From: Polaribacter sp. HaHaR_3_91
GTDB taxonomy: Bacteria; Bacteroidota; Bacteroidia; Flavobacteriales; Flavobacteriaceae
Assembly (NCBI RefSeq): GCF_019278525.1
Contig: NZ_CP058986.1
Location: 1-64,000 of the forward strand
DNA: 64,000 bases
Direction: 5' to 3'
The translations under genes and the position numbers were made by a program. Each line of letters starts with the position of its first letter. Position 1 is the first letter of the stretch. Positions 9,225-26,045 of this stretch are shown piece by piece. The notes beneath the pieces are model-generated. The model saw only the letters and a program-made list of their open reading frames with translations. It ran no database searches and was not told the origin of the DNA.

Positions 9225-9255
9225 AGTTAAGAGTTTAGAGCGATGAATTATGAGT
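9225..9255 (+). repeat. Left repeat cluster of four-helix-bundle cassette 1
   Basis: Degenerate copies of a 10-mer follow the atpA stop: AGTTAAGAGT (9225-9234), a weaker AGTTTAGAGC (9232-9241) and AATTATGAGT (9246-9255). They are inverted relative to the three exact ACTCATAACT copies downstream of the gene (reverse complement AGTTATGAGT). The start codon of the enclosed gene (9250-9252) lies inside the last copy. Confidence 0.65.
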
Positions 9256-9588
9256 AAGTTAACTGAAAGCCCTATAAGAATTAAAAGCTTTCAGTTTGCT
9301 TGCGAAATAGTTAAATATTGTGATACTCTTAAAGAAAATAAAGATTTTGAATTAGCATCTCAATTAATAAGAAGCGGAACAAGTATTGGAGCCAATACAA
9401 GAGAAGCACAAAGAGGAGTTAGTAAAAAAGATTTTAAATACAAATTTGGTATTGCTTTAAAAGAAGCTGATGAAACCAAATATTGGTTAGAAATTTTAGA
9501 ATCAACAGGTAGAAAAGTACCAGCTGAATTGAATAATAAGTGTGAAGAGTTAATACGTATTTTGGTAGCAATTATCAAAAACTCATAA
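9250..9588 (+). CDS. Four-helix bundle protein (S23 / 23S rRNA intervening-sequence family)
   Basis: A 112-residue, all-helical protein of the TIGR02436/S23 type. It shows the family pattern of a helix with FACEIVKYCDTL, then QLIRSGTSIGANTREAQRG, then KEADETKYWLEIL. These proteins were first noticed in 23S rRNA intervening sequences. They occur in many copies in Bacteroidota, and their function is unknown. They form homopentamers in known structures of relatives, as far as I recall. Here it sits between atpA and atpG, bracketed by inverted families of short repeats that contain both its start and stop codons (9250 and 9586-9588). A second paralogue lies at 52249. Confidence 0.85.
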   Translation: MSKLTESPIRIKSFQFACEIVKYCDTLKENKDFELASQLIRSGTSIGANTREAQRGVSKKDFKYKFGIALKEADETKYWLEILESTGRKVPAELNNKCEELIRILVAIIKNS

Positions 9589-18458: not shown

Positions 18459-19322
18459 TCAAAGATTGATTTTGAGATTTTTTTTAAACCTTTTTATCAT
18501 TTCTAAAGGAGATTGATGCAATCTGCCAGTCGCTTTTTCAAAACCTGAAGGAACCTCATTTTCGCCTCCTTTTATGCCTTCGTAAATTCCAGCAATTACA
18601 GTTCCTATAAAATCTCCCAATGCTCCTTTTCGTTCAGCGGCATAAGCATCAAAAGAAACAGAATTGTAGGTTAAATTAGTGTCATAAACTTGGTTTATTA
18701 AGGATGCTAATTCACTTTGGGTAATTGCTTCTCCAACTAAATTGTAGGTATTACCATTATGTTTTTCTTCTAAAAGCATTTTTGAATATGCAAAACCTAA
18801 CTCTTCTCTGCTTGTATACATACATTTACCTTCTCCTGCACAATTTCTAATTGCGCCTTCTTTTACATAGGTATCAATATATTCTAAATCGGGTTCAATA
18901 TAAATACCGTTTCTTCCAATAACCCAATCCAAACCAGAATTGATAACGTCTTTCTCTGTTTGTCTGTTTGTTTGCACAATAGGACTAAATGCATTGTTTT
19001 CTTCTGCACCTACAATACTTGTGTACACAATTTTTTGAACGCCGTTACTTTTTGCAGCTTCAATTACATTTCTATGTTGTATAATTCTTTTTTGAGGATC
19101 ATCCATTCCAGAAACTAAAAGAACAGCATCTACTCCTTGCAATGCCTTCTCAAAATCTTCTCGGTTGTTATAATCTCCTTTTCTTATTTCTACATCTAAA
19201 TAAGCTGCCTTTTCGGGCGTACGAGCAATTCCTATTACATTTTCTTTTCCTATCGCTTTAATTAAATGTTTTACAATGGAAGCTCCTAATTTTCCGCTTG
19301 CTGATGTTACTGCTATTTTCAT
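18459..19322 (-). CDS. NmrA/QorB-type NAD(P)-binding oxidoreductase
   Basis: A 287-residue atypical short-chain dehydrogenase. The cofactor-binding turn is TSASGKLGASI (about 7-17), followed by a GDYNN segment (about 49) and the VLLVSGMD strand. There is no YxxxK active-site pair of classical SDRs. It resembles QorB-like quinone oxidoreductases and NmrA-type redox sensors. It lies downstream of the ergothioneine operon with a 99-nt gap that holds a degenerate copy of the 21-bp-spaced direct repeat seen at the two other units here. Substrate unknown. Confidence 0.8.
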   Translation of the reverse strand: MKIAVTSASGKLGASIVKHLIKAIGKENVIGIARTPEKAAYLDVEIRKGDYNNREDFEKALQGVDAVLLVSGMDDPQKRIIQHRNVIEAAKSNGVQKIVYTSIVGAEENNAFSPIVQTNRQTEKDVINSGLDWVIGRNGIYIEPDLEYIDTYVKEGAIRNCAGEGKCMYTSREELGFAYSKMLLEEKHNGNTYNLVGEAITQSELASLINQVYDTNLTYNSVSFDAYAAERKGALGDFIGTVIAGIYEGIKGGENEVPSGFEKATGRLHQSPLEMIKRFKKNLKINL

Positions 19323-19385
19323 AATATCTTTTTAATCCGTTTTATTTTAGACTACAAATATCAGAATGTTACTTTTTTTCGGACA

Positions 19386-19413
19386 GATACATCTTCTACT
19401 AAAAATGGTAAAA
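19386..19413 (-). promoter_or_regulatory. Degenerate 21-bp-spaced direct repeat (AraC-type operator candidate 3)
   Basis: GATACAT (19386-19392, 5 of 7 matches to GGTAAAT) and GGTAAAA (19407-19413) start exactly 21 bp apart. The proximal half lies 64 nt upstream of the NmrA-like start codon. The context AATGGTAAAAAT matches the distal halves of the two better copies at 24255 and 25141. Confidence 0.45.
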
Positions 19414-19421
19414 ATTAGCTT

Positions 19422-20087
19422 TTATAAGATGTTTTTTACTGCTGCTTTAATTTGAAGTTGCGCCATATCTATAATATTTATTTGGTCTGTAGGTTTTATG
19501 ATTGACAACTCCGTACAACCAAGAACTACAGGATAATTTTCGCTATATTTTTTAATCAATTGATGGTACTTATTGATGATTTCTTTGGTTTCCGTAGTAT
19601 TATAAATGTGTTTTCTAACCTCATCTATAAATATCATATCTTCTGAACACGGAAGCAGAATTTCAATAGAATTTAACTCTAAATAAGAACGAATATAACT
19701 GGACTGCATGGAATGTAAAGAACCAAAAATCACGACTTTCTTAGCATCAATTTCTTTCATTTTTAAAACTGATAAAGGCAACGGATGTAAGATGTTTTTT
19801 TGAAATTCTAACCGATCTATCGTTTCATGCAATGTAATATTGGGAATTAATATTTCCGTAACTTCTAAGGCTTCCATTTGATCTAAATAACTTTGTAAAA
19901 TAGTATCTAATTGCAATGAAGTATTTGGTAAAAGCGGATTTATGGTATCAAAATCTGTATTTAACAAAAAAAACGGACAAGTACTATACCCTCCTTTTTT
20001 AACATTGTATACCTTATTTAGTTGCTCTAAATAATATAAAGTAGATCTGCTTCCCAGTCCTAATATGGCAAGTTGCGTTTTAATCAT
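19422..20087 (-). CDS. Aspartate/glutamate racemase-family protein, single catalytic Cys
   Basis: A 221-residue member of the Asp/Glu racemase superfamily (two alpha/beta domains). The second catalytic Cys is present in VVLGCTELSI. At the first position, where PCNTAH is usual, the sequence is LIPNITLHE, with Asn in place of Cys. Known relatives that lack one Cys include arylmalonate decarboxylase and E. coli YgeA, so racemisation, decarboxylation or another reaction is possible. It starts 2 nt downstream of egtD, so it is the last gene of the ergothioneine operon, where a racemase is not part of the known pathway. Confidence 0.8.
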   Translation of the reverse strand: MIKTQLAILGLGSRSTLYYLEQLNKVYNVKKGGYSTCPFFLLNTDFDTINPLLPNTSLQLDTILQSYLDQMEALEVTEILIPNITLHETIDRLEFQKNILHPLPLSVLKMKEIDAKKVVIFGSLHSMQSSYIRSYLELNSIEILLPCSEDMIFIDEVRKHIYNTTETKEIINKYHQLIKKYSENYPVVLGCTELSIIKPTDQINIIDMAQLQIKAAVKNIL

Positions 20088-20089
20088 TT

Positions 20090-21091
20090 TTAATTTCTAG
20101 TTAAAATATAATCTGCAAAATAGGCTTTGCTATCCATAATTTTAGTGTCGATACTAAAATCTGTATTCGCTATAATTTGTTGAATCAATTCATCATTATA
20201 TTTTCTAGATATTTCTGTATGAATTTTTTCACCTTTGGTAAAACTAAAAGATGTGCCTATAGACTTAATGGTCACTATTTGATTTTCTGTACTTACAATA
20301 TAACTCTTTGCAATACCTTCTTTTTCATCATATTCTGGCTGATGCTGAAACTGATTAAGGTTAAAATCACCACCTAATTCATTATTAATTCTATCTAATA
20401 AATTCAAGTTAAACGCAGCAGTTATTCCTTTGCTGTCATCATAAGCTGGAAGCACAATTTCTTTCGATTTTATCAAATCTACGCCTAACAATAATTTATC
20501 ACCCGGATTTAAATTTGCACCTAATTTAGAAATAAATTTTGCAGCCTGTTTATCGCTCATATTCCCAATATTAGAACCCAAAAACAAGATAATTTTTGGC
20601 TGTTTGCTCTTTTTTAAGGAATCTAAAACTTCAAAATAATCTCCTTGTTGCGTTTTTACAGACAAGTTTGGTATTTCAGTATTTAAATCCTCTTTCAATT
20701 GACGCAAAGCATTCGAAGAAATATCTATTGGAAAATATTCAAAATTATAATTTTGCGTTGTTAAACTTTTTAATAGTTCTTTTGTTTTTAATCCATCTCC
20801 AGCACCTAATTCTATCAATTCAAAATAAGAATCGACTTTCATCTTAAAACTATCTATTAAATCTTTTGTTTTATTTTTGAATATATCTAGTTCGCTGCGT
20901 GTTAAATAATACTCAGGCAAATTCATTATTTCTACAAAAAGTGCATCGCCTTTTTTATCATAAAAATATTTTGAAGAAAGCGTTTTTGGATTGCTCAGGA
21001 GTCCTTTTTCAATATCGTTTCTAAATGTTTCATTGATTTCTAAATTGATTGTACTCCCTTTTTTATCTTTGTTCTTAACGATTTCAATCAT
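20090..21091 (-). CDS. egtD: L-histidine N-alpha-methyltransferase EgtD
   Basis: A 333-residue SAM-dependent methyltransferase that makes hercynine (trimethylhistidine), the first step of ergothioneine synthesis. Landmarks are KYFYDKKGDALFVEIMNLPEYYLTR (abridged: FVEIMNLPEYYLTR, about 50-63), the SAM motif ELGAGDG (about 92-98), and ILFLGSNIGNM. The length is normal for EgtD. It is encoded 4 nt downstream of egtB, which gives strong mutual support. Confidence 0.95.
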   Translation of the reverse strand: MIEIVKNKDKKGSTINLEINETFRNDIEKGLLSNPKTLSSKYFYDKKGDALFVEIMNLPEYYLTRSELDIFKNKTKDLIDSFKMKVDSYFELIELGAGDGLKTKELLKSLTTQNYNFEYFPIDISSNALRQLKEDLNTEIPNLSVKTQQGDYFEVLDSLKKSKQPKIILFLGSNIGNMSDKQAAKFISKLGANLNPGDKLLLGVDLIKSKEIVLPAYDDSKGITAAFNLNLLDRINNELGGDFNLNQFQHQPEYDEKEGIAKSYIVSTENQIVTIKSIGTSFSFTKGEKIHTEISRKYNDELIQQIIANTDFSIDTKIMDSKAYFADYILTRN

Positions 21092-21095
21092 ATTA

Positions 21096-22244
21096 TTATT
21101 TTGCTAGTCTAATTCCTGTAAATTGCCATCTTTCGGTAGGGTTAAAAAAGTTACGATATGTTGGTCTACTATGATCTTGAGAAGTTGCTACCGAAGCGCC
21201 TCTCAACACCATTTTATTGCTCATAAATTTTCCGTTGTATTCTCCAACCGCTCCATTTTCTTTTTTAAATCTTGGGTAAGGCAAGTAGGCGCTATTTGTC
21301 CATTCCCAACGTTTTCCCCAATCTAATTTTTGGGCTGCAATTTCCCATTCAAATTCGGTTGGTAGTCGCATTCCTTTCCATTCTGCAAAAGCATTGGCTT
21401 CGTAATAATTAATATGACTTAAAATAGCAGCTGTATCCACTTTTTGCAAACCTGCAAGTGTATAAGAATGCCATTCTCCATCAATTTTATGCCAATACAA
21501 AGGAGAATTAATATTGTTTTTATTTACCCAAGACCACCCCTCATCTAACCAAAGATTAAAATCTGTATAGGCGCCAGAATCCATAAAATCTATAAACTCT
21601 CCATTGGTTACCAAATGATTATTAATTTCAAAATCATCTAGATATACTTTATGAACGCCCAATTCATTATCATAACAAAAATCTGTTCCTTGGTGTCCTA
21701 TTTCATAAATTCCGGCAGGTATTTGTATGCTTTTTGTTGCAGTATTTTTATCTTTAACTAAATTATACTCATTATTAAAAACTGGAAAAATAGGATTGTG
21801 CCCAAACATATATTTCACATCAGTTACTAATAATTCTTGATGTTGTTGTTCGTGATTTAAACCCAATGTTACCAAATCAATTATTTTTTCATCGGAAAGA
21901 TCCTTTAAAAAAGCATTCATTTTAGCATCTACATACGCACGGTATTCATAGATTTCATTGGTACTTGGTCGAGACATATTACCTCTATTTGCTTGTAATA
22001 TTCTAGTACCAACATTGTTGTAATAACTATTAAAAAGAAAGTTGAAATCCGCATTAAATTCGGTATAATCCGCTATGTATTCTTTTAAAATAAAAGTTTC
22101 AAAAAACCAAGTAGTATGTGCTAAATGCCATTTGGGGGGGCTAGCAAATAGCACTACCTGAATAGCATAATCTTCTATATTTAGATGATTACAAAAAGTG
22201 GTCGTTTGCAATCTTACTTGTTTGTATTTTTCTGCTAATCTCAT
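21096..22244 (-). CDS. egtB: Ergothioneine sulfoxide synthase EgtB
   Basis: A 382-residue non-heme iron enzyme that joins hercynine to a thiol donor with O2. The N-terminal DinB-like domain carries the iron ligands: WHLAHTTWFFE (about 38-48) and NHEQQHQELL (about 128-137). The C-terminal half is the FGE-sulfatase domain, ending in YRNFFNPTERWQFTGIRLAK (abridged: FFNPTERWQFTGIRLAK). No egtA or egtC is present. That fits EgtB variants which use cysteine rather than gamma-glutamylcysteine, but the sequence alone does not prove the donor. A dedicated EgtE lyase is also absent here. Confidence 0.94.
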   Translation of the reverse strand: MRLAEKYKQVRLQTTTFCNHLNIEDYAIQVVLFASPPKWHLAHTTWFFETFILKEYIADYTEFNADFNFLFNSYYNNVGTRILQANRGNMSRPSTNEIYEYRAYVDAKMNAFLKDLSDEKIIDLVTLGLNHEQQHQELLVTDVKYMFGHNPIFPVFNNEYNLVKDKNTATKSIQIPAGIYEIGHQGTDFCYDNELGVHKVYLDDFEINNHLVTNGEFIDFMDSGAYTDFNLWLDEGWSWVNKNNINSPLYWHKIDGEWHSYTLAGLQKVDTAAILSHINYYEANAFAEWKGMRLPTEFEWEIAAQKLDWGKRWEWTNSAYLPYPRFKKENGAVGEYNGKFMSNKMVLRGASVATSQDHSRPTYRNFFNPTERWQFTGIRLAK

Positions 22245-22260
22245 TTAGGTTTTTATAGCT

Positions 22261-22989
22261 TTATTCCAATCCTTTTTTATCAGGATTCCAAAATGGTTTT
22301 GTTTTAATTTGTTTCGCACTCCAGTTTAGTTCATTTCTAAAATATTTATTTAATGCCACACAAACTCTACTGTCTCCTGCAATATAAACAATTTTATTTT
22401 CTTTTAATTTAGGTGTAATTTTTTTTACCTTTTTTAAAATTTCGTTTATTGGATTTTGCTTTAAATAATACCTATTAAATGGTTTAGAACCATCTATATC
22501 ATCAAAAAAAGCACTTTGGCTCTCACTATATAGTATACTTTCTACTTGCTTATTATTCGGTAAGTTTCTGTTTAGAATGTATAAATGTGATAAGGCAGAT
22601 AAATCTCCAATCATTAAATAGCTTTCTGCAGTTTCGTCTAATAAAAAGTTTCCTTTTTTCCATTTAAAATAGACAGTCTCTCCTACTAAACAATTAGCCA
22701 CCCATTGCGATCCAATACCTTTGCTATCGGTTGCAATGGCAATATCTAAGTAGCCTTCGGTTTGGTTTATGTCCCAAACACTATAGCTACGTACTTTATC
22801 TTTCATTGATAAATTATCATTACCAATTCCGATTCCTAAACGTAAAAAATAGCCAGGTTTAAAATCTGCTTTTTTTATACTTTCACTTTTCAACCTGATT
22901 TTATAAACGGATGCTGAAATTTTCTCCTTATGTTCAATAATAGCAGCTTCTAAAACGACCTTTTTGATTATGTTTTCTAATAATCCCAT
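22261..22989 (-). CDS. Siderophore-interacting-type FAD-binding reductase
   Basis: A 242-residue flavoreductase of the SIP/FNR-like group. The FAD-binding motif appears as VRSYSVWD (about 64-71), then LDIAIATDSKGIGSQWVANCLVGE (abridged: GIGSQWVANCLVGE, about 89-102), where family members have a similar SxWA motif. The C-terminal domain ends with the KPFWNPDKKG-type tail (family members: YWRxG). It is likely cytoplasmic and uses NAD(P)H. It lies 6 nt downstream of the MsrQ-like heme protein, which suggests an electron-transfer pair. Confidence 0.75.
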   Translation of the reverse strand: MGLLENIIKKVVLEAAIIEHKEKISASVYKIRLKSESIKKADFKPGYFLRLGIGIGNDNLSMKDKVRSYSVWDINQTEGYLDIAIATDSKGIGSQWVANCLVGETVYFKWKKGNFLLDETAESYLMIGDLSALSHLYILNRNLPNNKQVESILYSESQSAFFDDIDGSKPFNRYYLKQNPINEILKKVKKITPKLKENKIVYIAGDSRVCVALNKYFRNELNWSAKQIKTKPFWNPDKKGLE

Positions 22990-22995
22990 CTTAAT

Positions 22996-23622
22996 TTAAG
23001 ATTTTAGTATTTTTCGTTTTCTTCTTTCTATGAATTTATTTTTGATAAAAGGAATTCTTATCATAAAACCGAGACCAACAACTATTGCATAAATAAGCCA
23101 TGTTTTATCTAAAATAGCCACGTGTAATACGCTTAAGAAAATAGCTGCATACGCATAACTTTGTAATTTTTTCCAGTTCGATTTTAGGAACTTCATAGAC
23201 TTTCTGTTAGAAGTAAAAAACAACGGAATTAAAATTAAAATGGCAACAAAACCAGCTACATAATTAACTTGTGTAAAGGTTTCTAAAAAACCTTCTGCCC
23301 AAATAAAAATAATAAAATGCAGAAAACTCCAAACAGCTGTTGCAATTCCCATTGCCTGACGTACAAAAAGGTTCATTACACCAAAAATGATAAAAACCGG
23401 AGTTAACGTTAATACAGCCGTCATCCAACGGATGGCAAACTCACCAGAAACATGATACAACATTTCTAAAGTGGTTTTTCCGTCAGCTCCTTTGCCTTCT
23501 ATCAACGAAAGAGAAAATCCGTTGGACAGATCTACATCAAACATATTGATGATAACAAGCATTGGTAATAGCGCTAGAATAGCAACAATTACCCAACCGT
23601 AATTCTTTTTTATTACTTTCAC
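22996..23622 (-). CDS. Ferric reductase-like / MsrQ (YedZ)-like heme membrane protein
   Basis: A 208-residue protein with about six transmembrane helices. The pattern HVSGEFAIRWMTAVLTLTP (abridged: SGEFAIRWMTAVLTLTP), RQAMGI-WSFLHFIIFIW, then PLFFTSNRKSMKFL and LQSYAYAAIFLSVLHV follows MsrQ/YedZ: conserved His residues in helices about 2, 3 and 5 that bind heme b, and the FFTSN loop. E. coli MsrQ passes electrons to the periplasmic methionine sulfoxide reductase MsrP, but no msrP is here; the flavoreductase downstream is the likely partner. The start overlaps the NTF2-like stop by 1 nt. Confidence 0.75.
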   Translation of the reverse strand: MKVIKKNYGWVIVAILALLPMLVIINMFDVDLSNGFSLSLIEGKGADGKTTLEMLYHVSGEFAIRWMTAVLTLTPVFIIFGVMNLFVRQAMGIATAVWSFLHFIIFIWAEGFLETFTQVNYVAGFVAILILIPLFFTSNRKSMKFLKSNWKKLQSYAYAAIFLSVLHVAILDKTWLIYAIVVGLGFMIRIPFIKNKFIERRKRKILKS

Positions 23623-24002
23623 TATTTGTACATGGTATTATTGTTCAAAGCTTCTTTTGGTACTTGTTGAATGCTGTCCCAGTGTTCTACTATTTTACCA
23701 TTTTTATCGAACCTAAAAAAATCCATGGTCACATAATTATCGTTGTCTGGCCATTCTTGATAGGTATGTAAGGCAACCAAATCTCCTTCGGATATTGCTC
23801 TTACAAACTCAATCGTTTTAATAGGAAACTCCTTTTGCATTCTATCAAAATAATCAATAAACGCCTGTGGTCCATCTCCTACCATTGGGTTGTGTTGAAT
23901 ATATTTTTCACCTACATATAACGCAACAGCCTTTGTAGGGTTTCCTTCATATGCCATTTTGTAAAAAGCAATTGCATTTTTTTTATTTTGCTCTATATTC
24001 AT
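23622..24002 (-). CDS. NTF2/SnoaL-like protein
   Basis: A 126-residue cone-fold protein. The segments NAIAFYKMAYEGNPTKAV, KYIQHNPMVGDGPQAFIDYF and VEHWDSIQQVP (the last about 109-119) follow the SnoaL-like family, whose members are small hydrolases, isomerases or binding proteins. The ligand is unknown. It is joined to its neighbours by 4 nt upstream and a 1-nt overlap downstream in the ergothioneine/redox operon. Confidence 0.8.
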   Translation of the reverse strand: MNIEQNKKNAIAFYKMAYEGNPTKAVALYVGEKYIQHNPMVGDGPQAFIDYFDRMQKEFPIKTIEFVRAISEGDLVALHTYQEWPDNDNYVTMDFFRFDKNGKIVEHWDSIQQVPKEALNNNTMYK

Positions 24003-24006
24003 GGTA

Positions 24007-24204
24007 TTATAGATTTGCTTTTAAAACAGCTAATTCTTTTTCTAAAGTTTCTGCTTTTAGCTTAAATTTCTCCATAGCTTTTTTAATCTGACCTATTTTT
24101 TTGAAGGCTTCATCATCTTGTACTGCCGTATAAATAGTATTTCCTTCTTTTTCTTTTATTTTTGATTTGCTGCCACATGTTGGGCAAATTCCTACTTGAC
24201 TCAT
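24007..24204 (-). CDS. Short coiled-coil protein with a single CPTC motif
   Basis: A 65-residue protein. The N-terminus MSQVGICPTCGSKS contains one CxxC knuckle, and residues about 35-65 form a Lys/Glu/Leu heptad helix. The single CxxC could bind metal only as a dimer, or could be a redox site. It is the first gene of the seven-gene operon and is preceded 51 nt upstream by the best copy of the GGTAAAT direct repeat. I recognise no named family. Confidence 0.6.
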   Translation of the reverse strand: MSQVGICPTCGSKSKIKEKEGNTIYTAVQDDEAFKKIGQIKKAMEKFKLKAETLEKELAVLKANL

Positions 24205-24254
24205 ATTATTTGTTTTATAATTTACAAAGGTCTAATTATCTTCTTATTATAAAA

Positions 24255-24282
24255 GGTAAATCTAGGGTCCTTTATGGTAAAT
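24255..24282 (-). promoter_or_regulatory. GGTAAAT direct repeat, 21-bp spacing (AraC-type operator candidate 1)
   Basis: GGTAAAT at 24255-24261 and 24276-24282, both exact, starting 21 bp apart (two helical turns). The proximal half is 51 nt upstream of the first gene of the ergothioneine/redox operon. Same sequence and same spacing as at 25141-25168. Confidence 0.75.
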
Positions 24283-24320
24283 ATGAGAAATCTATTATTA
24301 TTTATTCATTGATATTAAGA

Positions 24321-24455
24321 CTACTTCCCTTCAAATTTAGACTCTAATTCATATTTATCGGTTTCAGCAATTACTTTTGAAAACACTTTAGATGCTGACA
24401 TATTTGCATTATCAACATAAATAATTGTTTGCTTATGAAAGTTAAGCACAAGCAT
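24321..24455 (-). pseudogene. Possible small gene or truncated gene remnant (44 codons)
   Basis: A minus-strand ORF from ATG (24455) to TAG (24321-24323). It begins MLVLNFHKQTIIYVDNANMS and ends YELESKFEGK. Composition looks protein-like rather than random (balanced charges, a short beta-alpha pattern). A lone GGTAAAT half-site lies 50 nt upstream, at about the distance found for the proximal halves of the intact units. It may be the surviving part of another regulon member. No family recognised. Confidence 0.3.
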
Positions 24456-24551
24456 ATTGAATAATGGTAAATACAATTGTTTTTATCAAAAGAAGCCTAA
24501 AAACGGTAAATATGAACCTCTTATAAATTAATTGGATTTCTATAACGCAAA

Positions 24552-24591
24552 AAAAATCTGATAAACACTATAAGGAATTTATCAGATTAGA
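24552..24591 (-). terminator. Terminator of the MoaF-like gene
   Basis: On the minus strand, an AATCTGATAAA / TTTATCAGATT stem is followed by a run of eight T. It lies about 50 nt after the stop codon of the gene at 24639-25085. Confidence 0.85.
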
Positions 24592-24638
24592 TATATTGAA
24601 TTGATAAGTAGTAATTACTTCTATTATTATAAAACTTA

Positions 24639-25085
24639 TTAGGGTCTTTTTAAATGATCTATAATACCACTTGTAAACACTGTTCTTAAAGTTCTTTCTG
24701 GTTTATTTTGATAACCCACTATAATAGAACTGTGCATTAGCATTTTGTCAAAATCAAAAACAATGGTTAAATAGTCTTTTAAACCTATTTCGTGCCAATT
24801 CACTAAATACATATCGTTTCCAAGTTTTGTTGATCTGTACGGAATGTCTTCGTTTCCGTTTCCCTTATTTGGTCCAGCAACCCATTGGTACTTTGCTTTT
24901 CCATCATTAAACTCCATATGCAAACCAGCACCGTTTTGATATTGAAAATTAAAAGAATACCCGTCTAAAAGGTGTTCTGCTTGTTCAAACTGGAAGTTGT
25001 TTTCTGTTGTTGTTTCGTTTTGTGAAAAACCAAGTCCTACTGTAAATAGTGCAAGACATACTAAAGTAATTAATTTTGCTTTCAT
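24639..25085 (-). CDS. Secreted MoaF / phenolic-acid-decarboxylase-like calycin protein
   Basis: A 148-residue protein with a cleavable signal peptide (hydrophobic 3-20, then FSQNET). The mature part shows strands in calycin order: LLDGYSFNFQYQNGAGLHMEF, KAKYQWVAGP, DMYLVNWHEIGLKDYLTIVFDF and LRTVFTSGII (landmarks, abridged). This matches the MoaF N-terminal-type and PadC-like beta-barrel group. Such barrels bind small aromatic ligands, but the ligand here is unknown. It has its own GGTAAAT operator 56 nt upstream, and the AraC gene follows upstream on the same strand. Confidence 0.65.
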   Translation of the reverse strand: MKAKLITLVCLALFTVGLGFSQNETTTENNFQFEQAEHLLDGYSFNFQYQNGAGLHMEFNDGKAKYQWVAGPNKGNGNEDIPYRSTKLGNDMYLVNWHEIGLKDYLTIVFDFDKMLMHSSIIVGYQNKPERTLRTVFTSGIIDHLKRP

Positions 25086-25140
25086 CTTTGTTGAGTTTTA
25101 AATTTAATACAAAGTTGCTATAAAACTCTTTTATGAGAAA

Positions 25141-25168
25141 GGTAAATCATCCGATAAGAATGGTAAAT
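25141..25168 (-). promoter_or_regulatory. GGTAAAT direct repeat, 21-bp spacing (AraC-type operator candidate 2)
   Basis: GGTAAAT at 25141-25147 and 25162-25168, exact and 21 bp apart, in the 90-nt gap between the AraC stop codon and the MoaF-like start. The proximal half is 56 nt from the ATG. The flanks also match copy 1 (AAAGGTAAATC, and ATGGTAAATAT). Confidence 0.75.
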
Positions 25169-25175
25169 ATAGGAA

Positions 25176-26045
25176 TTAAAAAAAATGTTGATTCTTAAAT
25201 TCTTTCGGACTTACCTTCATTTTCTTTTTGAAAAACTTCGTAAAATTAGTAACCTCATCAAAGCCAGTATCAAATGCAATTTCTTTTAAGCTTTTGTTGG
25301 TACTCATCATATCTCGCTTTATTTCTAAGATAACATAATCATCTATAAAATTTTTAGCCGTGTTTAAAGTAAATTCTTTTACGGCACTATTTAAAGTTTT
25401 GGTAGTAATAAATAATAAATTTGCGTAGTCTTTTACATTTCTAGTGTTTGTAAAATTAGTCTCTACCAAGCTTTTAAACTGATCAAAAGTATAAAACTGT
25501 TTCGACTTATTTTTTGGAATGTAATTATCAGGAGATTTACGTTCTAACTTTAATAAATACAAATCTAGAAACGCCGCCATAATATTACGATGTGCAAAAC
25601 TATTCTCTAGTGCAATTTCCGATTGCAGTTGATGTATTAGAATCTCATTGTCTATTTTATTTTTAAAAACAGGAGAAGATAAATGGTAATTGTATAAATT
25701 AGAAATTAAATTAATAGAAGATTTAGAGAAATAATTCATCAGAAACTCTTCTGTAAAAATTATTAAAAAACCTTGGTATGTTGCATTTCTTTGAAAAGAA
25801 TGTACTTGCCCTTTCGCTATTTTAAGAACCGTACCCTCTTCAACCTTATAATCCTTTAAATCTATTTGATGAGTACCAGTTCCCTTTGTAACAATTAGCA
25901 AGGCAAAAAACGAAATTCTATGTGGTTGCCTTGGCTCATGATCCTCAATATTATCTAACCTTTCAAATAAATCTGATAAGTTTAAAAGCTCAAAAACACT
26001 TTTACGATCTTTACCTTGAAAGGCTATATTTGGAATATTTTTCAA
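25176..26045 (-). CDS. AraC family transcriptional regulator
   Basis: A 289-residue regulator. The N-terminal half is a cupin-like sensor (HRISFFALLIVTKGTG, then EEGTVLKIAKGQVHSF). The C-terminal about 100 residues carry two helix-turn-helix motifs: VKDYANLLFITTKTLNSAVKEF and LKEIAFDTGFDEVTNFTKFFKKKM (abridged: GFDEVTNFTKFFKKKMKVSPKEF landmark; PKEF end). It lies upstream of the MoaF-like gene on the same strand. The direct repeats at 25141, 24255 and 19386, spaced 21 bp like AraC half-sites I1 and I2, are the likely targets. The effector is unknown. Confidence 0.92.
   Translation of the reverse strand: MKNIPNIAFQGKDRKSVFELLNLSDLFERLDNIEDHEPRQPHRISFFALLIVTKGTGTHQIDLKDYKVEEGTVLKIAKGQVHSFQRNATYQGFLIIFTEEFLMNYFSKSSINLISNLYNYHLSSPVFKNKIDNEILIHQLQSEIALENSFAHRNIMAAFLDLYLLKLERKSPDNYIPKNKSKQFYTFDQFKSLVETNFTNTRNVKDYANLLFITTKTLNSAVKEFTLNTAKNFIDDYVILEIKRDMMSTNKSLKEIAFDTGFDEVTNFTKFFKKKMKVSPKEFKNQHFF

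Follow-up and report, generated by a model that had tools for sequence, protein, structure and literature searches.

The closest described counterpart of the system reported here is AraC of Escherichia coli at the araI1–araI2 operator of araBAD, where a protein with a cupin domain and a double helix–turn–helix (HTH) meets two direct repeats that lie 21 bp apart. In Polaribacter sp. HaHaR_3_91, direct repeats with the same step are found in the analysed piece (19386..25168) of a 64,000-nt stretch of DNA, called the window when the whole stretch is meant. They front genes on the minus strand and lie next to the gene of an AraC-family regulator. An initial annotation had read them as operators of this regulator at three units, namely a seven-gene operon with ergothioneine genes, a MoaF-like gene and an NmrA-like gene, and had named the ensemble a thiol/redox regulon. 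Our comparative analysis suggests, with a probability of roughly 0.88, that the repeats are operators of the adjoining AraC-family protein, which would act as a class-II activator of a local regulon.

The likeness to araI1–araI2 includes a strong distal and a weak proximal half-site, the placement of the proximal half at the −35/−33 region, and the cupin and double-HTH build of the regulator. The motif and the target genes differ from araBAD, and the promoters are of the Bacteroidota −33/−7 type. The best NCBIfam match of the regulator is HpaA (TIGR02297), an AraC/XylS regulator of 4-hydroxyphenylacetate catabolism (95 bits over 243 residues), but this score is far under the family cut-off of 274.65, and no hpa-like gene was recognised among the genes scanned. 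Literature searches aimed at this regulon returned no title or abstract about it.

Probable operator pairs and promoter geometry

All three pairs of the initial annotation are in place: GGTAAAT (ATTTACC on the promoter strand) at 24255/24276 and at 25141/25162, and GATACAT/GGTAAAA at 19386/19407. Their proximal halves lie, as had been claimed, 51, 56 and 64 nt from the start codons at 24204, 25085 and 19322, respectively. Operator 1 (25141..25168, minus strand), 5′ of the MoaF-like gene, is an exact pair kept in relatives, with its proximal half at 25141–25147 and its distal half at 25162–25168. Operator 2 (24255..24282, minus strand), 5′ of the seven-gene operon, consists of a proximal half at 24255–24261 and a distal half at 24276–24282; it is also exact, and identical in the relative G050. 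Operator 3 (19386..19413, minus strand), 5′ of the NmrA-like gene, joins the proximal half ATGTATC (19386–19392) to the distal half TTTTACC (19407–19413). This weakest of the pairs is real: it fronts the sole target that is retained in all 18 genomes with an orthologue of the regulator, its degenerate proximal half recurs at the equivalent place in G050, and better copies precede the NmrA-like gene in G037 and G076.

Each of the three operators is followed by a candidate −7 promoter element on the minus strand: CAACTTTG at 25110..25117 for the MoaF-like gene (23 nt after the proximal half), GACCTTTG at 24225..24232 for the operon (22 nt), and GATATTTG at 19355..19362 for the NmrA-like gene (23 nt). 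The initial annotation had overlooked this near-constant spacing, as well as a fourth, decayed operator (24484..24511, minus strand) 5′ of an O-methyltransferase remnant. Here the distal half ATTTACC (24505–24511) and the proximal half TTTGATA (24484–24490) have kept their 21-bp step and the −7 element has been lost; the counterpart in G050 (L034:9652) has CAAATTTG at 23 nt, followed by a gene for a 209-residue O-methyltransferase. The copy of GGTAAAT at 24505 is thus explained as part of this site. An extra GGTAAAT at 24466–24472 has no partner at 21 bp.

Could such pairs arise by chance in an AT-rich genome? From the 34 single copies of GGTAAAT in the window, 0.0095 exact 21-bp pairs are expected and two are observed; genome-wide (4.2 Mb), three exact pairs stand against none in a reversed control, the third lying within an open reading frame (ORF) of 791 codons. 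The bare pair becomes unspecific once degenerate, which speaks for chance: two mismatches give 172 matches genome-wide versus 151 in the control, and up to three give 19 in the window versus 16.3 expected. The specificity of the operators comes instead from their conserved flanks, the accompanying promoter element and the retention of the sites in relatives. Given this conservation and geometry, a chance origin is refuted, and we discount it almost entirely.

To describe the complete element, 23 sites from loci with an orthologue of the regulator were chosen via their half-sites alone and aligned on the promoter strand. Left out were pair matches within ORFs, four matches outside the cluster (L034:18823, L096:5455, L047:17896 and L047:17917) and one that overlaps a better site (L105:9362); the orthologue loci L092, L094 and L104 have no strict pair, and their variant sites were identified separately. 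L104 apparently has a half-site spacing of 20 bp. The resulting consensus is about YTCAYATTTACCATT-N11-ATTnACC-N23-nAnnTTTG. The last block is present in 21 of the 23 sites. It follows the proximal half at 23 nt in 19 of them and at 22 nt in two, and 45 other offsets tested gave no instance; in the remaining two sites (L097 and L102), the box ends in A in place of G.

PMC6847099 gives the −7 element of Flavobacterium johnsoniae as TANNTTTG, carrying T at position −12 and G at −5, and the −33 consensus as TTTG; PMC9723704 agrees on the −7 position. By its sequence, nAnnTTTG is the Bacteroidota −7 element. Since the position of this element is known from F. johnsoniae, start sites can be inferred (from PMC6847099), and they place the core of the distal half at about −63 to −57 and that of the proximal half at about −42 to −36. 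TTTG is missing from the interval −38 to −28 in 22 of the 23 sites, and T-12 is missing in 19.

The sequence geometry is that of a class-II AraC operator: the two half-sites are direct repeats with a 21-bp step, and the proximal one lies beside the −33/−35 element. Drawing on general knowledge of AraC-type activators, we infer that a class-II promoter dependent on its activator would be expected to have this layout. Each AraC subunit would grip one half-site with its two HTH motifs; the distal half (about YTCAYATTTACCATT) would be the strong, well-conserved contact and the proximal half (ATTnACC), which abuts the −33 region, the weaker one. The promoters are expected to be near silent without the regulator because the −33 TTTG and the T at −12 are mostly missing, and they would remain so until the regulator, bound to its small ligand, recruits RNA polymerase. 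AraC-family proteins can also repress, and the protein might therefore act at these sites as a repressor or dual regulator. This appears quite improbable: the operator core stops at about −36, so that the region from −33 to −5 stays free, and promoters so poor in −33 and T-12 sequences seem too weak for repression to be needed.

Conservation of the sites with the AraC gene

A search of 97 genomes of the same genus with the AraC protein yielded three orthologues (87, 64 and 63% identity), followed by a match at 40%. Among 397 genomes of the family, 14 further orthologues at 54–64% were found besides the window's own, and four matches at 39–41% were treated as a separate class. The orthologue set thus comprises 18 loci from 12 genera, window included, at 54–100% identity. 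When the AraC protein served as a single query against named genomes, only relatives at 22–28% turned up, and these were not used.

At least one site of the operator type precedes a downstream gene in all 18 orthologue loci. A matrix built from the distal half and the −7 element finds 36 sites that score at least 25, with at least one per locus, whereas the controls, 0.94 Mb of reversed and complementary strands from 26 loci, reach 19.3 at most. Of the 36 sites, 23 had served to train the matrix and 13 had not. The site stands directly before the NmrA-like gene in eight of the 18 loci (window, L034, L035, L036, L095, L098, L102 and L103). In 95 genomes of the same genus, a refined operator pattern with no or one mismatch occurs only in the four that carry an AraC orthologue; four others have one two-mismatch match each, and the reversed control has three matches. 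The repeats thus proved to be conserved and the motif not to be equally frequent at random sites, the two points on which the proposal of the initial annotation could have failed, although with the exceptions described below.

The composite pattern was scanned with up to two mismatches through 26 genomes, 18 with an orthologue and eight with a 40%-class AraC only, and gave 38 matches versus 10 in the control. Each of the 16 zero-mismatch matches lies beside an AraC orthologue or in its vicinity; the most remote one, in G381, is 9.7 kb from the AraC gene, just 5′ of genes for a small protein with a CPTCG motif and for NmrA. Four of the six one-mismatch matches are inside the loci. A fifth, in G464, is on a contig other than that of its 41% AraC gene and precedes CPTCG, MsrQ-like, NmrA and flavin-reductase genes; the sixth (G275:C12) is taken as chance. 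Among the 16 two-mismatch matches, five fall inside the loci; the other 11 lie elsewhere, a number at the level of the control. No match was found in seven of the eight genomes with a 40%-class AraC only.

Regulator and target also occur together. Of the 397 family genomes, 31 have an NmrA orthologue (E 1e-90 or better): 15 of the 15 with an AraC orthologue and 16 of the 382 others (both samples taken as the same 397 genomes; Fisher test). Among the 31 loci chosen by NmrA, a site is found in 20 of the 22 whose stretch contains an orthologue or full-length AraC-like match, and in three of the nine without (Fisher p = 0.003, kinship ignored; lowest accepted site score 21.4, in G440). Six genomes have an NmrA gene and lack any AraC match at E 1e-20: G009, G171, G316, G322, G382 and G429. 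Their examined stretches showed no site; G009 comes from outside the 31-genome sample, and the contig of G316 is only 4.7 kb long. G451 has no site either, and a 30% AraC-like gene lies just beyond its examined stretch.

These data bear on whether the repeats could be operators of another regulator, for example of an AraC-like protein encoded elsewhere in the genome. The window's genome does contain three more AraC-like matches at E 1e-20, and two sites have no AraC gene close by: in G307 (L211:3121), the MoaF-like and NmrA genes are preceded by a strong site, whereas the 10 kb examined contain no AraC gene and the genome's best match is at 31%; in G464, site and homologue are on separate contigs. 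However, every one of the 18 orthologue loci, from 12 genera, has sites, and none occurs in the six stretches without an AraC match. Moreover, all 18 orthologues share the segment TNFTKFFK of the second HTH, which is replaced by ANM[TIV]KFFK in six proteins of the 40% class, whose half-sites differ as well: there, the distal half is [AT]TTTAC[TC], the proximal half is TTTGATA in four of six, and nAnnTTTG again lies at 23 nt (by eye). This joint change of HTH segment and half-sites is suggestive, and a different regulator is improbable.

Six 40%-class loci (L037, L045 and L106–L109) are mostly beside SnoaL genes and show, by eye, a diverged site (mostly TTTTACT ... TTTGATA) in unchanged geometry. 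The matrix scan gave nothing at or above 12 in L106, L107 and L037, where the intergenic DNA shows an equivalent layout by eye.

Several observations weigh against assigning the repeats to the adjoining AraC protein. Related genomes are not independent, which makes the Fisher values optimistic, and the scores of 23 of the 36 matrix sites are circular through training. G135 and G198 have a full-length AraC-like match and no site, as does G078 (outside the 31-genome sample) with a 35% AraC. Conversely, sites are present in G307, G464 and G110, whose stretches contain no full-length AraC-like match, the AraC gene being distant, elsewhere or broken; in G110 (L222), it is in pieces (several tblastn fragments), with the sites 5′ of the CPTCG and NmrA genes still in place. 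In four loci, sites lie beside quite distant AraC genes (32–35%). Outside the loci, the composite pattern has 13 matches versus 10 in the control, and all but that of G464 are chance. Three of the 18 orthologue genomes (G374, G159 and G107) have no composite match; in these, the proximal halves or the spacing of the sites deviate. Proximal halves are variable in general (ATTnACC, ATGTATC, TTTGATA), and the second contact is therefore less certain. Finally, the electrophile signal proposed below is drawn solely from gene content.

With these points counted, control of all three units by one AraC regulator via 21-bp direct repeats is strongly supported on comparative evidence: sites at 18 of 18 orthologue loci, a near-fixed distance to the −7 element, none in the six stretches without an AraC match, and AraC-distant matches that fall on the same genes.

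The regulator and its probable target genes

The regulator (25176..26045, minus strand; 289 amino acids) is predicted to combine an N-terminal cupin-like domain with two HTH motifs, and both parts pass their Pfam cut-offs (AraC_binding, 36.8 bits versus 21.1; HTH_18 for the C-terminal double HTH, 60 bits versus 33.6). In a structure model of the protein (pLDDT 84.6), the individual domains resemble AraC-family structures: the DNA-binding domain fits AraC-type ones such as 3lsg (TMt 0.84), and the N-terminal domain fits the regulatory domain of RhaR (TMt 0.65–0.72). Fits over the whole length are poor (TM 0.36–0.40), the domains being placed differently.

The target that is common to all 18 loci is the NmrA-like protein (18459..19322, minus strand), a predicted NAD(P)H reductase, whose nearest solved relatives, by sequence alone, are the triphenylmethane reductase/YtfG (QOR2) quinone reductases (2vrb, 129.5 bits; 2zcu, 116.8 bits). 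Other members come and go: the CPTCG protein is present in 13 loci, the MoaF-like and MsrQ-like proteins in nine each, and EgtB with EgtD as well as an intact O-methyltransferase in eight each, and flavin reductase, SnoaL and metallo-beta-lactamase-fold proteins are also among the variable members. The regulon would accordingly be confined to one locus and variable in content around a constant reductase.

In the window, all target genes are on the minus strand. The MoaF-like protein (24639..25085; 148 amino acids) matches PF22036 with 35.3 bits (cut-off 27) and, faintly, phenolic acid decarboxylase (23 bits). The O-methyltransferase remnant (24324..24455; 44 amino acids) was identified by tblastn and clustering as the C-terminal end of a class-I (catechol-type) enzyme; the nearest relative has 209 amino acids (PF01596), of which the window keeps the last 44 codons only.

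The operon starts with the CPTCG protein (24013..24204; 64 amino acids), which is zinc-ribbon-like by eye and kept with the cluster; a Pfam search with a relative's copy gave no match. It is followed by a SnoaL-like protein (23622..24002; PF12680/PF07366) and by a ferric-reductase-like, putatively MsrQ-like membrane protein (22996..23622) with sub-threshold matches only (NF003831, 43 bits versus a cut-off of 130; PF01794, 23.7 versus 28). Next comes an FAD/NAD(P)-binding reductase (22261..22989; SIP/FAD_binding_6); in L035 (G037), the flavin-reductase (SIP) gene matches as two overlapping pieces and may be frameshifted. The ergothioneine sulfoxide synthase EgtB (21096..22244; TIGR03440, 522 bits versus 360) and the histidine N-alpha-methyltransferase EgtD (20090..21091; TIGR03438, 298.6 bits versus 290.9) both pass the NCBIfam cut-offs for the known bacterial enzymes, and an Asp/Glu racemase-family protein (19422..20087; PF01177) ends the operon. 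The C–S lyase, EgtA and EgtC of the ergothioneine pathway were not recognised among the operon genes, the part of the genome that was searched.

Elsewhere in the window, an ORF of 112 codons (9250–9588, plus strand) encodes what we take to be a four-helix-bundle (IVP/S23-type) protein, between genes that presumably correspond to atpA and atpG.

Possible signal and significance of the proposed regulon

EgtB and EgtD, together with an MsrQ-like gene, within the operon would fit a thiol-redox stress system whose regulator senses oxidants via its cysteines, as RclR does. The window's regulator contains no cysteine, though; neither do 11 of the 18 orthologues (among them L101, a shortened ORF), and no cysteine is conserved among the 18. 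Direct cysteine sensing of the RclR kind was therefore dropped. Because the ergothioneine genes are present in eight of the 18 loci only and conserved cysteines are lacking in the regulator, the name "thiol" is too restrictive: the ergothioneine part of the "thiol/redox regulon" stands for those eight loci, and the NmrA-like reductase, present in all 18, is the constant member. Altogether, a thiol-redox stress system is unlikely, and a role in detoxifying aromatic or quinone electrophiles, with ergothioneine as an option, would fit the gene content better.

The NmrA-like, O-methyltransferase and MoaF-like genes tentatively point to an aromatic or quinone-type electrophile as the most likely signal of the AraC regulator, with ergothioneine as a scavenger in species that have EgtB and EgtD. 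It is conceivable, if still doubtful, that an AraC regulon spread across the Flavobacteriaceae senses aromatic or quinone-like electrophiles, and that in some species it has taken in ergothioneine biosynthesis as a defence that can be induced. Its fixed element would be the AraC operator joined to a crippled Bacteroidota promoter that lacks both the −33 element and T-12.

The composite site would provide a precise, testable candidate activator element for the Bacteroidota, a phylum with promoters unlike those of E. coli. It would also tie ergothioneine synthesis genes to one regulator, with few promoters involved, and the conserved core target, the NmrA-like reductase, may serve as a starting point toward the inducer.

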